Of a stretch of 64,000 nt of DNA, positions 562 through 58,177 are shown one piece after another; position 1 is the first letter of the stretch, and every line of letters starts with the position of its first letter. The stretch is from Spirochaetales bacterium. Its GTDB lineage: Bacteria > Spirochaetota > Spirochaetia > Treponematales > UBA12059. The position numbers and the translations under genes are program-made. The notes beneath the pieces are model-generated. The model had not been told where the DNA came from, ran no database searches, and saw only the letters and a list, made by a program, of their open reading frames with translations. The stretch spans positions 124,001-188,000 of the forward strand of contig JAFGJV010000004.1 of the NCBI GenBank assembly GCA_016928955.1, given 5' to 3'.

Positions 562-1596
562 ATGTTGGTCACAAACTACGTATTCGAGGCGTTAGGGTCG
601 CGGGAATCCTTCAATACCTCGGTTCGGCACGTCAAGGCGACCGTGGGGTTGTCGGAAAGGGTGGCGGGCGGCGAGAACCTGGCGGACGCCGTCAACACGC
701 TGCTGGACGAAAAGGCCCTGAGCTTGGACGAGGTGGCGCCGCTGGTGTCTATGTTGCTCGTGGACAAATTATCCTACGTGGCGGTATCCAGGAACCTGAG
801 CACCGTGACCACGGATCTGAAGGCCGTCCACGCCGCCGTAAAATCCTGGAACGCGGCTGATTTCGTCGTCCTGTACCATCATCCGGACCTCGGCTGCATA
901 CTGCTCAACCCCAAAAACGAGTCGCATCTGGCCCGGCTTGACCGGCTGAACAAATACGAGCTCATTACCGTATACGCCGGGGGCTTTGCCAAAGGGCTGG
1001 ACGCCGCGCTGGCGCGGAAGGCGGCACTTGCCCTGGTCGGGCTTTACGAGGGAGACAAACCCAAGGCAGACGCGTCCCTTGGCAAGGGACCGTTCTCGTA
1101 TCGCCAGCCCAAGCCCAAGGCGGCGCCCCGAGCGGAGCCTGCAAAGAAGGCGGGCAGAAAAGCCGCGCCTGCCCGGAAAGGCAAAAAGAAGGCGTCCGCC
1201 GGAACAGCGGTTGCCGAGCAGGCCGTGCGGGCACCCGCGCCGGCTGCTCAGGCACCCAAGATGGGCGCACGCATGACGCCCATGTACGCGGTTCCCGTCA
1301 GCAACGAATTGTTCCACAACGGAAACGTTGAGGCATGGAAGCGCATCATAGAAAGCTACAAGACCAAACACCCCGACCTGGAAGTGCTCGTGTACTACGA
1401 CGGCGAGCGCATCACGGATATCAACGCCCTCTTCAAATGGGGCAAGGTCAAGCACGGCAGCGTCATCCAGTTTGCGGTGGCCGGAGAGAATATCTGCGAT
1501 GTGGCCAAGCTGCAGCGCTATCTGGCCCAGGGCGCGAGCAAGATGTTCGAGGCTTTCCTCCGCGGACCCGTCAACAGCGTCCTTCCCCTGTTTTGA
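562..1596 (+). CDS. Unknown N-terminal domain joined by a Lys/Ala/Pro linker to an HPr-like C-terminal domain
   Basis: The protein is 344 aa. ATG 562 is chosen because GGAAGGGG lies just upstream; in-frame TTG 523 and ATG 547 lack a ribosome site. Residues 1-165 are an alpha/beta region I do not recognise. Residues 180-238 are a Lys/Ala/Pro linker. Residues 241-325 follow the beta-alpha-beta-beta-alpha-beta layout of the PTS phosphocarrier HPr, with His252 at the position of the phosphorylated histidine and a hydrophobic VIQFAVAGE strand where HPr has its SITIKAEGE strand. The Arg-Pro that normally follows the histidine is missing. The gene lies 14 bases before a PEP-utilising enzyme, so a phosphoryl-relay partnership is plausible. 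The HPr resemblance was judged by eye only. Confidence 0.75.
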   Translation: MLVTNYVFEALGSRESFNTSVRHVKATVGLSERVAGGENLADAVNTLLDEKALSLDEVAPLVSMLLVDKLSYVAVSRNLSTVTTDLKAVHAAVKSWNAADFVVLYHHPDLGCILLNPKNESHLARLDRLNKYELITVYAGGFAKGLDAALARKAALALVGLYEGDKPKADASLGKGPFSYRQPKPKAAPRAEPAKKAGRKAAPARKGKKKASAGTAVAEQAVRAPAPAAQAPKMGARMTPMYAVPVSNELFHNGNVEAWKRIIESYKTKHPDLEVLVYYDGERITDINALFKWGKVKHGSVIQFAVAGENICDVAKLQRYLAQGASKMFEAFLRGPVNSVLPLF

Positions 1597-1610
1597 GCAA
1601 GGAGCAGAGC

Positions 1611-4253
1611 ATGAAAGAGCATGTCCATTTTTTCAGCCAGAAAGACGTCATCAAAAAGGGTGTTGAACTAGAGACGCTCGGACAGCGCGGGCGCCAGGCC
1701 AACGAATTCGCGGAGCTTGGTTTTCCAATACTGCCCGGCTTTATCATTGATTCCGTGGTTGCGTCGCACCTGGCCAAGGAGAACGTCCTTGACGCCATCC
1801 GGGCGCCCATGAAAAAGGCAGACGCCGTGGTGGAAAAATCCTACGGCGACCCCAACGAGCCCCTGCTCATCAAGATTGTCATATCCCCGAACCTGGCCAT
1901 ATCCAACTATCCGGCCCTGCACAACTTTGGCCTTGCCAGAAAGACTGTGGGCGGTTTCACGCGCTTTGTGGGGGAGAACTTTGCAGCCCATGAAGTGGCT
2001 TTTCTTGCCAGGGGCATGCTCAAGATAGAGGAGCGCATAGCTGAGCTCGAGAACAGGGACAAGGACCTGGCCAAGATACGCCAGCGTATCGTGGCGGCAA
2101 GCGGAGTGATAGACGAGGCCAAGCCCGGACAGAAGGCCGAGGCGGTGATGGCTAGCTATGAGGCCTTCCTGCCCAAAGGTTTCTTTGACGACGCATGGGG
2201 ACAGCTGGACATAGCGCTCAAGCGCATATCGCACATGCTGGACCTGGACGACCAGGACGACGACGATACAGCCATACTGATCCAGCCCATGGTGTACGGC
2301 AACTACGGAAAGAATTCCGCTTCCGGCGCTTTCTACACGCGCAACGTGGTGAACGGCGAGAAGCGGCTCCAGGGAGAATTCTTCGTTGAGCGCTTCGACG
2401 AGATAGGCGCCGAGGGCAACGACATCAACAAGATCGCCCCTAAGCACCTCAAGGAACTGGAGCGCATAGCCCGTACGCTGGAGGACCGCCAGCGGGAGAT
2501 TCGCCAGATTCGTTTCACCGTCGAGAAGGACAAACTGTGGCTGATTGAGCAGCGGCAGGTGATGGCCAAAAGCACCCAGGCCGACCTGAAGCTGTACCTG
2601 GACCTCAACCAGCGCAAGGTTGTGGACGACGCGTTCGTGATCAACGCCATAAAACCGGGGCGGCTGAACGAGATACTGCATCCGGTGGTCGACATGGCGT
2701 CCGTCAAGAAGCTGGCCGGCGTGAGCGGCGGCATCACGGGAGCGCCCGGGGCCGCCATAGGCCGCGTGTTCTTCACCACGGAGAGCCTGCTTGAGGCCTA
2801 CCGCGTCGCCCAGCAGAAGGGAGAGGACAAACGCCTCATCCTCTGCATGCCCGCGACCTTTGCCGAGGACGTCAAGGCCATAGAAGTTGCATCGGGCGTT
2901 CTGTCCTGCGAGGGCGGCTACTCGGCGCACGCGTCGGTGGTGGCCAGGCAGTACGGCAAGGTGTCGCTCGTGAAGCCAGAGATGAAAATCCGCGGCAAGA
3001 AAGCCACGATCGGCCAGCTGACCGTCAATGAGGGCGATTTCATCACCATCAACGTGCCGTATTACGGGGATCCCCAGGTGTGGCTCGGGAAGGCATCCCT
3101 GATCGAGCCGGACCCTGCGGAATCAGGCCTGTTCGAGTTCATCGCCCTGGTCAAGAAGCACATGAAGCATTTCCACGTCCGCACCAACGCTGACAGCCCC
3201 AGGGACGCGGCACTGGCCCTGTCCTTTGGCGCGGAAGGCATAGGCCTGTGCCGGACAGAGCATATGTTCTTCAACGAGAAGCGCATCAACGTGTTCCGGG
3301 AAATGATCCTGGCAGACAGCCTGGCCGAGCGGGAAAAAGCCCTGGCCAAGCTCCAGGTTATGCAGCGGGAGGACTTCTACGGCCTGTTCAAGGTGATGGC
3401 GGGCAAGGACGTGACCATTCGCCTTCTGGACGCCCCTCTGCACGAATTCCTGCCGCACAACGAGGACGAGCTCGAGTCGTTCATGTCCCATCTCAATTCG
3501 GCCAAGAAGGGCGGCAAGGCTCTGTCCAAGGCCGAGATTCGGGCGCGCATGGACGGCCTGGCCGAATTCAACCCGATGCTCGGCCACCGGGGCTGCCGTA
3601 TCGCGGTGAGCTATCCGGAGATATACGCCATGCAGACGCGCGCTGTGTTCGAGGCGGCGTACAAGCTGCGCGAGGAGAAGGTGGACGTTCGGCCGGAAAT
3701 CATGATACCCATCGTGATGAACGCGTCCGAGCTCAGGCTCATCGTGTACGGCAAGAAAATAGAAGGTCGGACATACAAGGGCATCGTTGACATAGAGGAG
3801 GACGTGCGGCGCAAGCTCGGGGCCAGGGCTTTGCCATACCGCGTGGGAACCATGATAGAGCTTCCAGCCGCGGCCCTGACCGCGGGGGAAATCGCGCGCT
3901 ACAGCGAGTTCTTCAGCTTTGGCACAAACGACCTCACGCAGACGACCCTCGGCATAAGCCGCGATGACTTCAACAGCTTCATGCCGGACTATTCGACCTT
4001 TGACCTGATAGAAGGCAATCCTTTCTCCAGCCTGGCCCCGCCGGTCAAGGAACTGGTGGCCATGGCGGCCAGAAGGGGTCGCATGACGCGGCCGAGCCTT
4101 GAGATGGGCCTGTGCGGCGAGCATGGGGCCAATCCGGATAACGTGCGCTTCTGCATGGACGCCGGGCTGGACTATGTGTCGTGCTCACCGTATTCGGTGC
4201 CCATAGCCTGTCTGGCCGTGGCCCAGGCAGAGCTGGAGCGGGCAAAAGCCTGA
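1611..4253 (+). CDS. Pyruvate,phosphate dikinase-like PEP-utilising protein with a degenerate ATP-grasp domain
   Basis: The protein is 880 aa, the usual PPDK length. ATG 1611 has AAGGAG at 1599-1604. The central phosphohistidine domain is intact (EGGYSAHASVVAR, His440). The C-terminal PEP/pyruvate barrel is very well conserved: VRTNADSP, LLDAPLHEF, LGHRGCR, GTMIELPAAALT, FGTNDLTQ and GLCGEHG with catalytic Cys835. The N-terminal nucleotide-binding domain is not: the LGGKG loop reads LGQRG, the SVRSGAR segment reads IKIVISPNLA, and the QGEDVVAG segment reads IGAEGNDI. Known PPDK uses those residues to bind ATP. I infer an enzyme that takes phosphate from PEP through His440 but may pass it to another acceptor, such as the HPr-like protein just upstream, rather than to AMP. 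Confidence 0.85.
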   Translation: MKEHVHFFSQKDVIKKGVELETLGQRGRQANEFAELGFPILPGFIIDSVVASHLAKENVLDAIRAPMKKADAVVEKSYGDPNEPLLIKIVISPNLAISNYPALHNFGLARKTVGGFTRFVGENFAAHEVAFLARGMLKIEERIAELENRDKDLAKIRQRIVAASGVIDEAKPGQKAEAVMASYEAFLPKGFFDDAWGQLDIALKRISHMLDLDDQDDDDTAILIQPMVYGNYGKNSASGAFYTRNVVNGEKRLQGEFFVERFDEIGAEGNDINKIAPKHLKELERIARTLEDRQREIRQIRFTVEKDKLWLIEQRQVMAKSTQADLKLYLDLNQRKVVDDAFVINAIKPGRLNEILHPVVDMASVKKLAGVSGGITGAPGAAIGRVFFTTESLLEAYRVAQQKGEDKRLILCMPATFAEDVKAIEVASGVLSCEGGYSAHASVVARQYGKVSLVKPEMKIRGKKATIGQLTVNEGDFITINVPYYGDPQVWLGKASLIEPDPAESGLFEFIALVKKHMKHFHVRTNADSPRDAALALSFGAEGIGLCRTEHMFFNEKRINVFREMILADSLAEREKALAKLQVMQREDFYGLFKVMAGKDVTIRLLDAPLHEFLPHNEDELESFMSHLNSAKKGGKALSKAEIRARMDGLAEFNPMLGHRGCRIAVSYPEIYAMQTRAVFEAAYKLREEKVDVRPEIMIPIVMNASELRLIVYGKKIEGRTYKGIVDIEEDVRRKLGARALPYRVGTMIELPAAALTAGEIARYSEFFSFGTNDLTQTTLGISRDDFNSFMPDYSTFDLIEGNPFSSLAPPVKELVAMAARRGRMTRPSLEMGLCGEHGANPDNVRFCMDAGLDYVSCSPYSVPIACLAVAQAELERAKA

Positions 4254-54417: not shown

Positions 54418-54648
54418 ATGGACAGACAGGGCGACGTTATCGAGTTCAGGATCGAGAAGCACCTTGCCGTGCTGGGCGAGGGCAAGGGCGGCTGGAAGAC
54501 GGAACTCAACCTGGTCAGCTGGAACAACCGGGAACCCAAATACGACCTCCGGGCTTGGGACCCCGAGCATAAGAAGATGGGCAAGGGCATAACCCTGAAC
54601 TCAATCGAAGCAACCCGCCTGCGTGACGCCCTGTCCGCCTGCCTGTAG
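54418..54648 (+). CDS. Small PC4/YdbC-like single-stranded DNA-binding protein
   Basis: The protein is 76 aa. GGAGG (54408-54412) precedes ATG 54418. Sequence such as VLGEGKGGWKTELNLVSWNN and KYDLRAWDPEHKKMGKGITL matches the YdbC family, which has the PC4/Whirly-related single-strand DNA-binding fold. Probable role in DNA replication, repair or transcription; the biological job is not known. It ends just before a strong hairpin. Confidence 0.85.
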   Translation: MDRQGDVIEFRIEKHLAVLGEGKGGWKTELNLVSWNNREPKYDLRAWDPEHKKMGKGITLNSIEATRLRDALSACL

Positions 54649-54694: not shown

Positions 54695-55606
54695 CTAGTT
54701 GTCGGCAAAGAGCAAACCGTACTCGCGCGGGCTCCCGGTTACGTGGGGGTGATAGTCTGCGTATTGGCCGTTGTCGTAATCGTCAGCAACCCACTGGTTC
54801 CACTGGATTTGTATATTGACGGCGGTGAAGGCAAAAAGCTCCGTGGTGGTGATGAGGCCGTCCCTGTCGGCGTCGGCGTAGCCGGGAGCTTGAAGCAGAA
54901 AGCCTGTGAAAATCCCGTGCGTGCTTGTTTCCCAGGAAAAATCCCCGGCGCCGGCGGCGGACAGGACTATATAGTCGCCGTAGCTCGCACTTGCCGCATA
55001 CGCGGCTATGGCGTCCCCGGTGGCGGGTAACTGCCAGGTGTACATGATGGAGCCGTCCGGGGTCTCGTTGGGGCCAAAGAGGGGCGGCACGCCGTCCGTG
55101 GTCGCTCCTTCCATAACAAAGCCTCCCGAGTGGCAACTGTCCAGGATCACCACCACGTGCTTAAGGCCGGCGGCCTCAAAGGCTGAGAAGAGCTCTGCTG
55201 GGTAGAAAGCCTCCAACAAGTCCAAAGAACCTCCGGTGGTAATCGAACCCCGCGGAAGTATGTACGTCGTTCCGTCGAAATCGTAAGTTCCATGCCCGGA
55301 ATAGTAGAACACGACCAGCCCATCGAAACCGGCCATGCTCGAAATATCAGCCAGAATGGCGGATTTCGTGGCATCTGCATCGGTTCTCAGGGTTGTGAGC
55401 CAGCCTTGTGTGCCAAGCATGGCGGCCATATCCTCGGCGTCGTTATCAGCTAAAGATAGATTTGGATAGGAACCTTCAGGCAAGCTGTCATCGTAGATGG
55501 ACACCCCATATAGCAACGCCACGCGGGCAGGCGCTTCGGGGATGGCGCAAGATGATAAGGCAAGAGCTAGGAGCACGGCCAGCGCTCGGCTATGTGAACG
55601 CTTCAT
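54695..55606 (-). CDS. Caspase-like (peptidase C14) lipoprotein
   Basis: The protein is 303 aa. GGAGG precedes ATG 55606. A lipoprotein signal ends at SSC (Cys20). The caspase fold has ARVALLYGVSIYDD, VVFYYSGHGTYDF with His105, and VVVILDSCHSGG with nucleophile Cys158, followed by YGDYIVLSAAGAGD and the final HVTGSPREYGLLF. Catalytic dyad is intact. Being a lipoprotein, it acts at the envelope, unlike most bacterial metacaspases. Its ATG overlaps the stop of the barrel-like gene upstream, so they are an operon. Confidence 0.88.
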   Translation of the reverse strand: MKRSHSRALAVLLALALSSCAIPEAPARVALLYGVSIYDDSLPEGSYPNLSLADNDAEDMAAMLGTQGWLTTLRTDADATKSAILADISSMAGFDGLVVFYYSGHGTYDFDGTTYILPRGSITTGGSLDLLEAFYPAELFSAFEAAGLKHVVVILDSCHSGGFVMEGATTDGVPPLFGPNETPDGSIMYTWQLPATGDAIAAYAASASYGDYIVLSAAGAGDFSWETSTHGIFTGFLLQAPGYADADRDGLITTTELFAFTAVNIQIQWNQWVADDYDNGQYADYHPHVTGSPREYGLLFADN

Positions 55607-56163
55607 GTGTTTCCTCCACCGGTAGTCCACGACACCGTGAACACGGCTTCAAAGCCTGCCGTAAAAGCGTCCGCCCTGAAATACAAAGGCAGGGACAGGC
55701 CTGCGTCCAGGGTCCAGCCAGAACCCAACCTGAAGGCGGGATAGTCGATGTCAAAGGACAGGCGCGGGTAATAGAAAAACGAGTACGAAAGGTCGTAGCG
55801 GGCCACAAAACCGCCCAGGGACAGGCCAAACCGGATACCCCCAAGGTCAGTCGGCTGGAACGACGCGCCCAGCGACAAGCCCAGCGAGGCAAAGCCCCGG
55901 TAGCGGTACCACGCGTCTGAGTAGGCGGACGGGGCCGCCCATGAGTAGCTTAGTGCCAGGTCCATGGACCAGGGCTGCCACAGCGACAGGCTCAGGGAAC
56001 CGCCCACGGTTGCATGGTTCAAGGTGTCGTATCCCGGTTCCGATGTTGCGAGCACGCCCGTATCCAGGCCGATAGACAGCCTGGCCGGCATGTCGCCGGC
56101 AAAGCCCGGGCTGAGAAAGACGAGGGTGGTTATGCAGGCTAAAAGCTGTCGGGTGGTACGCAT
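55603..56163 (-). CDS. Exported barrel-like protein, operon partner of the caspase-like lipoprotein
   Basis: The protein is 186 aa. ATG 56163 starts a good signal peptide (MRTTRQLLACITTLVFLSPG); ATG 56178 is an alternative. The mature part has regular amphipathic strands (SLSLSLWQPWSMDLALSY, GFASLGLSLGASFQP, FTAGFEAVFTVSW), as in an outer-membrane beta-barrel. No family recognised. Coupled to the caspase-like gene by ATGA overlap. Confidence 0.75.
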   Translation of the reverse strand: MRTTRQLLACITTLVFLSPGFAGDMPARLSIGLDTGVLATSEPGYDTLNHATVGGSLSLSLWQPWSMDLALSYSWAAPSAYSDAWYRYRGFASLGLSLGASFQPTDLGGIRFGLSLGGFVARYDLSYSFFYYPRLSFDIDYPAFRLGSGWTLDAGLSLPLYFRADAFTAGFEAVFTVSWTTGGGNT

Positions 56164-56252
56164 GTTGGCCTTCAACATGCCCCGGTTTTGAGCTAAAATC
56201 AAGCGAAAAGCGACGCGTTAGCGGACGGCGGCAACTTAAGGGGTGTACGGCG

Positions 56253-56624
56253 ATGGGAAGAAGTGCTCTGGTGATGGTTCTGGCGGGTATGTGCGCCGTT
56301 ATCATGGCGTCGTGTGCAGAAAGAGCGCCCGACCTTCGGCTGGAAACCACGCCGCTGATATCGGGCGGGCTTGGCTGGGTCGTGGTGGACATAGCGTACG
56401 CGCGTCTAGGAGCTGAGCCTTCATTTGAGGCCGCGGATTCAGGATACGCCCGCAGGGGCGACGTGCTCAGGATAGAGGGCAGGGACGTGGTCCACGGGGA
56501 TTCGGACCAGGGGCTGTGGTACCGCGTGGAAACGCCCGGCGGATCGGGTTGGGTCCACTGGTCGCAGGTCAGCGTGTACCAGTCACGCGAGCTTGCAGAA
56601 AAGGCAGCGGAGAGCCGCCCATGA
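56253..56624 (+). CDS. Lipoprotein with an SH3-like domain
   Basis: The protein is 123 aa. AAGGGG precedes ATG 56253. Lipobox IMASC at Cys21. The rest looks like an SH3b-type domain: YARRGDVLRIEGRD, GLWYRVETPGGSGWVHWSQV. SH3b domains often bind peptidoglycan peptides. Its last codons overlap the DUF445 start as ATGA, so it is probably co-translated with it. Confidence 0.8.
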   Translation: MGRSALVMVLAGMCAVIMASCAERAPDLRLETTPLISGGLGWVVVDIAYARLGAEPSFEAADSGYARRGDVLRIEGRDVVHGDSDQGLWYRVETPGGSGWVHWSQVSVYQSRELAEKAAESRP

Positions 56625-58177
56625 ACGAGTACGCGTGGCTTCGTTTCGTCCTTCCTCCCCTGATTGGCGCGGTCATAGGGCTCTTTACCAACTGGCTGGC
56701 CATCAAGATGCTGTTCAGGCCCCTGAAAGCCTACCGCGTGCTGGGCGTGCGCGTTCCCTTTACACCTGGCATTCTGCCCCGCGAGCGCGAAGGCATAGCA
56801 AAGTCGCTTGGCGACACCGTGTCCAAAGACCTGCTCACCGAGGAAGTGGTTGGATCGCGTCTTCGATCCCAGGAATTCAAGCATGGTCTTGAGAGCGCCC
56901 TGTGTCAGGCCGGCACGCATCTTTTGGACGCGCGGCCAGAGCAGCTGGGCGAGGGCTTCAGCCCAGAGCTTGGCTCAGCCCTCAAGGATGCGGGCCACAC
57001 GCTTCTGGGGTCGATCACCGGCTCGGATGCCTTCAGGATGGCCACGGACGCGGCGCTAGCCGTGGCTATTAGGGAACTTGGCCCCTTGAGCCTGGGCGAC
57101 CTGGCCAAGACCCCGGGAAAGCTTCCGGCCGCCGTCGGTATGCGGCCCGAATTCAAGGACGCCCTGTCCAAGGCAGTGGCAAACGCCCTTATGGCCTGCC
57201 TGGACGCCGCGCGGGCAAACGGCGGCTCCCTGTCTGCCATACTGCCAAAGGTTGCCTTGGTGTCACTGTCAGCAAAGGCGGCCAATGCGTCCTATCCGGC
57301 TTTGAGCCATGCCATAGCCGGCGTGCTCACCGATCCAGCCATCAGGACAAACCTGGAGAAGGCTGGCGCCCGCCTGGTCAGGTCCACCCTGGAGCGCTTT
57401 TCAGCCTTCCAGCGCTTCTTCATCACCCTGGGACGCTATGACGAGGCCATCCTTGAGAAAATGCCAGAGACCATAGCCGATTTTACCAGCGCGGTACAGG
57501 GAATCCTGGATGACGAGTCCACACGGAAGGCGGCGGTCAGCCATGTGGCGGCGGCCGTGGAAGGCATCCTGGACAAGCCCCTGGACCAGTGGAAGGCTTT
57601 TTCCAGCCCGGAAGCTCTTGCCCAAAGCGCGGCCAAGCTCCAAGCCATGATCCGCTCCGCGCTGGACACCCCTCCGCCCCCGGCCAGCCCGTTTAAAGCC
57701 GTCCTGGGCTGCGTGCGCGTGGACACGGTGCTTGGGGCGTTCCCCGGCATACAGGAAGCCCTCAGCCGGTCTGCGGCCGCCTGGCTGGCATCCGTGCTTG
57801 CCCCCGGGGACGACGCCGCGCCCGCGGCCAAGGTGCTGTCTTCCATCGCGGCGTCGTTCGCGGATGCTTTTGCCCGGGGGGCCAGCGGCCACTCGCTGGC
57901 CGAGCTGTCGGGACTGGACGATGCCTGGGTGAGGAGGGTGGCGGGAGCGGCCTCAGGAGGCTTGGCAGATCTGGCCGCGCGGGAAAGCGGCGCCATACTC
58001 AAGTCGCTGGACGTGCGGAATGTGGTCGTCAACAAGGTCAATTCCCTCGAACTCATAGAGGTGGAGCGCATGCTCCTGCGGGTTATCGACCGCGAGCTCA
58101 GGGCTGTCACCTGGTTCGGCGGCGTGCTGGGTCTCCTCATAGGGGGGTCGCAGAGCCTTGTAGCCCTGTTCTGGTGA
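56621..58177 (+). CDS. DUF445 family membrane protein
   Basis: The protein is 518 aa. An N-terminal membrane helix (FVLPPLIGAVIGLFTNWLAIKML) with the DUF445 signature TNWLAIKMLFRP and VPFTPGILPRER is followed by a long helical body, and a second membrane helix closes the C-terminus (TWFGGVLGLLIGGSQSLVALF). Function unknown; it often co-occurs with envelope genes. The start overlaps the SH3 lipoprotein stop. Confidence 0.88.
   Translation: MNEYAWLRFVLPPLIGAVIGLFTNWLAIKMLFRPLKAYRVLGVRVPFTPGILPREREGIAKSLGDTVSKDLLTEEVVGSRLRSQEFKHGLESALCQAGTHLLDARPEQLGEGFSPELGSALKDAGHTLLGSITGSDAFRMATDAALAVAIRELGPLSLGDLAKTPGKLPAAVGMRPEFKDALSKAVANALMACLDAARANGGSLSAILPKVALVSLSAKAANASYPALSHAIAGVLTDPAIRTNLEKAGARLVRSTLERFSAFQRFFITLGRYDEAILEKMPETIADFTSAVQGILDDESTRKAAVSHVAAAVEGILDKPLDQWKAFSSPEALAQSAAKLQAMIRSALDTPPPPASPFKAVLGCVRVDTVLGAFPGIQEALSRSAAAWLASVLAPGDDAAPAAKVLSSIAASFADAFARGASGHSLAELSGLDDAWVRRVAGAASGGLADLAARESGAILKSLDVRNVVVNKVNSLELIEVERMLLRVIDRELRAVTWFGGVLGLLIGGSQSLVALFW

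Follow-up and report, generated by a model that had tools for sequence, protein, structure and literature searches.

Bacterial caspase homologues are common. Most are of unknown role, and discussion of them usually centres on cell death or defence. The metacaspases and prokaryotic orthocaspases (C14B) have a p20 fold, a His/Cys dyad and a DxC motif in common with the spirochaete caspase described here. However, the spirochaete protein is a predicted lipoprotein with a very short tether, is accompanied by a near-obligatory barrel gene, and carries an EF-hand-like loop that is nearly universal in the family (36/37). The EACC1-caspase system (NF047832), as outlined in PMC7159879, has a 5' membrane component gene and a 3' caspase gene, as does the spirochaete pair. 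All 27 spirochaete caspases compared with the NF047832 profile show similarity to it, but the partner in spirochaetes is a predicted 8-stranded barrel and not the single-TM EACC1 protein, and the variable C-terminal effectors outlined for that system are absent. The locus is not an EACC1 system, because the window protein scores 61.8 bits where 140 are required and its barrel partner is unlike EACC1. A 2012 survey of prokaryotic metacaspases (PMC3501461) finds that 14 operons out of 217 carry OmpA domains and leaves 70 operons without an assigned function; its operon section makes no mention of a caspase-barrel pair. The caspase-like domains in polymorphic toxins, as outlined in PMC3482391, have a different architecture. 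A first-pass annotation of the locus had considered the module to be new, and no description of a caspase lipoprotein-barrel pair was found in the literature searched. C14 proteases that have a membrane partner of their own are a known kind of system; the lipid anchor and the predicted 8-stranded barrel set this one apart.

Two further systems bear on how such a pair might work. Dentilisin (PrcB-PrcA-PrtP) of Treponema denticola is outlined in PMC8167434 as a protease complex of outer-membrane lipoproteins that this spirochaete encodes in one operon and that depends on a partner: PrcB, the product of the first gene, is required for PrtP. It is a precedent for a caspase-barrel unit; it differs in that the protease is of the subtilisin family and the partners are lipoproteins, with no barrel among the components outlined there. 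RcsF is an outer-membrane lipoprotein which works with a barrel protein as an envelope sensor, according to PMC4942254 and PMC7553776; in the latter it binds the periplasmic domain of OmpA and not the OmpA barrel. The barrel described here has no periplasmic domain, and to that extent the RcsF-OmpA case counts against a lipoprotein-barrel complex of this kind. RcsF is, to our knowledge, not a protease.

The window (the whole stretch of 64,000 nucleotides that was analysed) contains the pair on its minus strand. The first gene (55603..56163) encodes an exported small barrel protein of 186 aa, counted from its ATG, with a signal peptide at about residues 1-23 and eight predicted strands between residues 27 and 180; the assignment draws on the ORF, an AlphaFold2 model, fold matches and family alignments. 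The second gene (54695..55606) encodes a caspase-like (peptidase C14) lipoprotein of 303 aa, also counted from ATG and assigned from the ORF, PF00656, alignments, an AlphaFold2 model and fold matches; the ORF as called mechanically starts eight codons earlier, with GTG at 55630. The gene overlap claimed in the first-pass annotation amounts to four bases: the barrel stop and the caspase start have an ATGA in common (55603..55606, minus strand). A GGAGG inside the barrel gene ends six bases before the caspase ATG. The caspase begins with a lipoprotein signal peptide and lipobox, LSSC (55547..55606, minus strand), in which Cys20, the predicted acylation site, lies at 55547-55549. Also on the minus strand are the catalytic His105 of the SGHG motif (55292..55294), Asp156-Ser-Cys158, which supplies the catalytic Cys together with the Asp that a basic S1 pocket would call for (55133..55141), and the EF-hand-like loop DADRDGLITTTE (residues 245-256; 54839..54874). 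The gene coordinates, the dyad H105/C158 and the lipobox C20 agree in position with the earlier annotation. Genes, overlap, intact dyad, lipobox and conserved pairing are established at the level of sequence.

The window caspase matches PF00656 (peptidase C14) at 6.2e-15, scoring 56 bits (cut-off 21.4), and is the sole C14 match in the 2.87-Mb genome. Matches to PF00656 were found in 24/24 aligned caspase sequences at E<=0.1 (best 5.5e-22). A family profile search matched GSU0716 (6e-18), metacaspases 4 and 9, metacaspase MCA2 and MALT1. The caspase fold is predicted with confidence: the AlphaFold2 model has a pLDDT of 83.9 and resembles MALT1, AtMCA-IIf and GSU0716 at E ~1e-10. Residues C20, H105, D156, C158, D245 and E256 are invariant in 24/24 sequences from the order and in 27/27 of a second, overlapping set. 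The SGHG and DxCxS motifs are present in all 37 distinct caspase sequences. The dyad and the lipoprotein signal, both put forward in the first-pass annotation from the one protein, recur in the family: the dyad is found in 37/37 and the lipobox Cys in every sequence of the two sets. The lipobox of L026 falls outside the search pattern and was counted by eye. Loci L006, L016, L020, L022, L027 and L029 are not in the order-level caspase alignment (A1); alignment A4 omits L053, L065, L078 and the contig-end loci L046, L058 and L069.

D156 occupies what we take to be the position of the Asp of the basic S1 pocket in metacaspases. The DxC motif and the EF-hand-like loop together suggest a Ca2+-dependent, Arg/Lys-specific, metacaspase-like protease rather than an Asp-specific one. 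Substrates with either Arg/Lys or Asp had been proposed earlier; the invariant DxC and the nearest relatives (metacaspases and MALT1) favour the first and count against the second. C14B proteases cleave after Arg or Lys (PMC4357240). The EF-hand-like loop is found in 36/37 distinct spirochaete caspases against 13/48 relatives from other phyla, and its presence in those 13 other C14 proteins means that it may be ordinary p10 structure.

The pairing of the two genes is near-obligatory and old. A barrel gene lies just upstream of the caspase in 28/30 order-level caspase loci, the other two being cut by contig ends; one barrel was found per locus in those 28, using an HMM iterated over the ORFs of the 30 loci. 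In a second collection of 80 caspase loci (32 spirochaetal and 48 from other phyla), the barrel is beside the caspase in 29/32 spirochaete loci and in 0/48 of the others. The three misses start at contig ends, and two of them, L046 and L058, hold a truncated barrel end, as an open-ended scan showed. The barrel HMM was iterated on the same order-level loci, and the independent test is therefore the 14 newly found spirochaete loci outside its training set, in all of which (14/14) a barrel is present. Loci were collected with an alignment-based contig search; a single-protein query gave no matches. The first-pass annotation had named homologues without the pairing as evidence against its proposal of an envelope caspase-type lipoprotein coupled to a barrel protein. 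Since the pairing is nearly obligatory, that objection fails and the coupling is supported. The recurrence of the same pair across the phylum places the observation well beyond chance, and an annotation artefact is likewise ruled out, as both genes recur across spirochaete loci.

Searching from the barrel side, an adjacent caspase was found in 40/48 loci. Among the remainder, L133, L150 and L165 are at contig ends; in genomes G659 and G661 (L156, L157) the caspase is 2.8 kb downstream of the barrel; in G613 and G551 (L163, L165) it is on another contig; and L166 and L168 are weak barrel hits which resemble other membrane proteins and have no nearby caspase. In L055 a TrkA_C-domain membrane gene (2982-3821) lies directly 3' of the barrel and parts it from the caspase. 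A membrane gene likewise lies between barrel and caspase in L156 and L157; the TrkA_C domain assignment comes from L055. In L160, L162 and L164, which are from single-contig genomes of one genus, two more divergent caspase genes stand in tandem after the barrel.

Overlaps of 4-11 bases occur in 38/42 distinct pairs; the possible start overlaps are 4 bases in 31 pairs, 8 in one and 11 in six. In the other four, the genes abut (L047), are parted by the TrkA_C gene (L055), form one frame (L006) or include a broken caspase frame (L022). L006, in which a barrel without its own stop reads into the caspase (1498-2934, minus strand), was excluded from the overlap classes; L020, L053 and L065 were missed at first, and L020 and L065 were recovered later. 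The frame anomalies of L006 and L022 are either assembly error or decay. Two genera of the class carry the genes unlinked or at a distance from each other; co-translation is therefore not essential. Pairwise distances of barrel and caspase are correlated after allowing for SH3, TM2 and DUF445 (partial r 0.45, 0.35 and 0.55; 35, 22 and 27 loci, respectively), which is a weak sign of co-evolution as the pairs are not independent.

The pair is not present in every genome. In the window's family, a short lipo-caspase (>140 bits) was found in 13/23 genomes, 12 of which have the barrel; the thirteenth (G015) is truncated where its contig ends, and the other ten have neither gene. Across 390 genomes of the order, 41 have the caspase (E<=1e-15), 42 the barrel (E<=1e-10) and 40 have both, at thresholds set after the lists had been viewed. 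At E<=0.001 the barrel is found in 45/390 genomes and the caspase in 127/390; the latter list is larger because longer C14 proteins are also found. Most sampled genomes of the order lack the pair, and its function is thus dispensable within the order. Rectinema subterraneum, a named isolate, has the pair, so complex formation, specificity and location are directly testable.

The preferred reading, which is held tentatively, is that the two-gene operon encodes an outer-membrane protease-barrel complex of spirochaetes for regulated envelope proteolysis. The first product would be a small exported 8-stranded barrel, and the second a cysteine protease of metacaspase type, tied to the membrane through its lipid and a tether of ~8-18 residues. 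Made together from overlapping genes, they would most likely work as a complex in which the barrel, as partner or sensor, positions and controls the protease; the protease would face the conserved outer rim of the barrel. The protease would cut envelope or surface proteins after Arg or Lys, probably when Ca2+ fills the EF-hand-like loop. In the 36 sequences that could be parsed, the tether from the lipid-bearing Cys to the first strand measures 8-18 residues, and the lipobox Cys is followed by Ser, Ala, Glu, Thr, Gln or Lys but never by Asp; together these place the enzyme close to the membrane. That membrane is most likely the outer one, by the lipoprotein sorting rule on the residue after the Cys, a rule which comes from E. 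coli. Metacaspase-type proteases mature by cleavage after basic residues of the linker. In this family such residues vary in number, with none in the window protein and 0-5 in the 31 of 37 sequences that could be parsed; in those 31 (six were left out) basic-residue density is 0.035 per residue in the linker against ~0.06 elsewhere. The lipid anchor of the protease, its near-obligatory partner in the outer membrane and the conserved chromosomal block around the pair point to a core envelope job. An envelope stress or proteolysis role of the pair, as raised in the first-pass annotation, is possible.

The same lipoprotein features allow another explanation, in which the protease hangs on the outer membrane's inner leaflet, faces the periplasm and either trims misfolded envelope proteins or degrades them, with the barrel as its membrane anchor or as a signal of assembly stress. 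Quality control of this kind is the default reading for a lipoprotein with these residues at +2 (36 sequences), and DacA and a divergent SH3 lipoprotein are among the neighbours. However, general degraders cleave widely, whereas proteases of the metacaspase type are limited to few sites, and the conserved barrel residues are at the presumed extracellular end and not in the periplasmic turns; this explanation is rather doubtful.

The barrel protein itself has no match in Pfam, NCBIfam or PHROG; OMP_b-brl is touched by 3/27 of its relatives, with a best E of 0.0097. Loci L006, L013 and L016 are not in the barrel alignment A2. The barrel fold, like that of the caspase, is predicted with confidence. 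Structural prediction had been suggested as a check on what was then called a small barrel-like protein, and the AlphaFold2 model, made from 30 aligned sequences, has eight strands and a pLDDT of 90.6. VIA-align ranks NspA first (Z 18.5, rmsd 2.2 over 142 residues), followed by OmpA (16.9), OmpW (16.3) and PagL (15.6), and Foldseek agrees; PagP gives Z 11.7. The protein is thus predicted to be an 8-stranded outer-membrane barrel with a signal peptide. Its modelled fold (Z 11.8-18.5) and signal peptide are common to NspA, the OmpA barrel, OmpX/Ail and OmpW; in contrast to these, it has no detectable sequence family, and its outer loops are short and conserved.

The outer loops are the most variable part of typical outer-membrane proteins. 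In this barrel family, the most conserved residues (41 sequences mapped on the model) are S79, Y88, R89, F/W91, Y123, T/S126, P133 and R163. Four of them, S79, Y88, R89 and F91, are in loop 2 and the start of strand 4 (residues 77-91; 55891..55935, minus strand). All are at the presumed extracellular end of the model, assuming the usual topology with both termini periplasmic. Mean JSD is 0.36 for outer loops and strand halves against 0.26 for inner ones (Mann-Whitney p 8e-7, for this barrel family alone). This concentration of conservation suggests that the outer rim is the working part of the barrel. It is also the basis for a bolder and doubtful proposal, in which the caspase-type protease is displayed on the surface with its own outer-membrane receptor: the conserved barrel rim would hold or sense a ligand, or sense damage at the surface, and turn on the lipid-anchored protease beside it. 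Spirochaetes would then have a proteolytic signalling complex outside the cell, and protease action at the outer surface would be a kind of caspase use with no description in the literature searched.

The barrel might instead be the substrate, clipped by the protease after conserved basic residues of its outer loops so that the state of the barrel is altered. R89 and R163 both lie within predicted outer loops; position 89 is R in 35/41 sequences and K in 3/41, position 163 is R in 31/41 and K in 3/41, and an Arg/Lys preference is expected of the protease. However, barrel rims commonly carry basic residues for other purposes, such as lipid or ligand contact, and Y88 and W/F91, which flank R89, look structural. 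Such clipping is improbable.

The genes around the pair are largely conserved. Among 41 distinct loci with upstream sequence, the flanks contain a divergent SH3-like lipoprotein gene in 38, DUF445 in 30, TM2 in 25 and asnS in 24; DacA and FolC are also recurrent neighbours. Synteny with housekeeping genes indicates vertical inheritance, and the pair looks like a vertically inherited envelope function, which would be a housekeeping or stress one, rather than a mobile competition module. The first-pass annotation had offered competition as one role. This part of it is not upheld, since the pair is single-copy in this genome, lacks variable toxin/immunity parts and sits in a block with FolC, DUF445, the SH3 lipoprotein, TM2, AsnS and DacA; the keeping of neighbour genes across loci likewise rules out a mobile or competition island. 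A defence, suicide or competition module comparable to other bacterial caspase pairs does find some support in a match to the PADLOC 'caspase' model (33.3 bits) and in the EACC1-caspase pairs, likewise outlined as two-gene membrane systems (PMC7159879). It is nonetheless very unlikely: the chromosomal block is conserved over genera and the pair is single-copy in the window genome, the protease (303 aa) has no variable effector domains and is exported rather than cytoplasmic, and no phage-type family match was found. It is more improbable still that the barrel is a PagL/PagP-like lipid-acting outer-membrane enzyme matured or limited by the protease: the fold is like that of PagL (Z 15.6) and PagP (Z 11.7) and the outer rim, where the active sites of such enzymes lie, is conserved, but the 41 barrel sequences have no conserved Ser-His-acid set and no invariant Ser/His pair (position 50 is Q in 18 and H in 13), and only Y88 is nearly invariant.

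In the window, the SH3-like lipoprotein gene (56253..56624, plus strand; a weak SH3_3 match) adjoins the pair and diverges from it. It overlaps the DUF445 gene (56253-58177 together, plus strand), and both diverge from the pair in most relatives; the two may have a common function. A promoter-like element, TTGATTTTA..AAA..GGCATGTTGAAG (TTGAWTTTA..AAA..GGCATNTTNAAG; 56170..56202, minus strand), lies right before the barrel start and is common to relatives; its placement leaves almost no leader before the barrel gene. A sigma-70 scan of the minus strand at the locus found no promoter-like site. TTGAWTY occurs in 21/41 upstream regions; a crude pair shuffle gives 8%. The long form of the element has a single match in its own genome, at this site, and a regulon sharing the element is therefore ruled out. 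A small PC4-like (PF02229) ORF lies between the TM2 and caspase genes (54418-54648, plus strand), and tblastn matches to it are found in seven loci, the window included.
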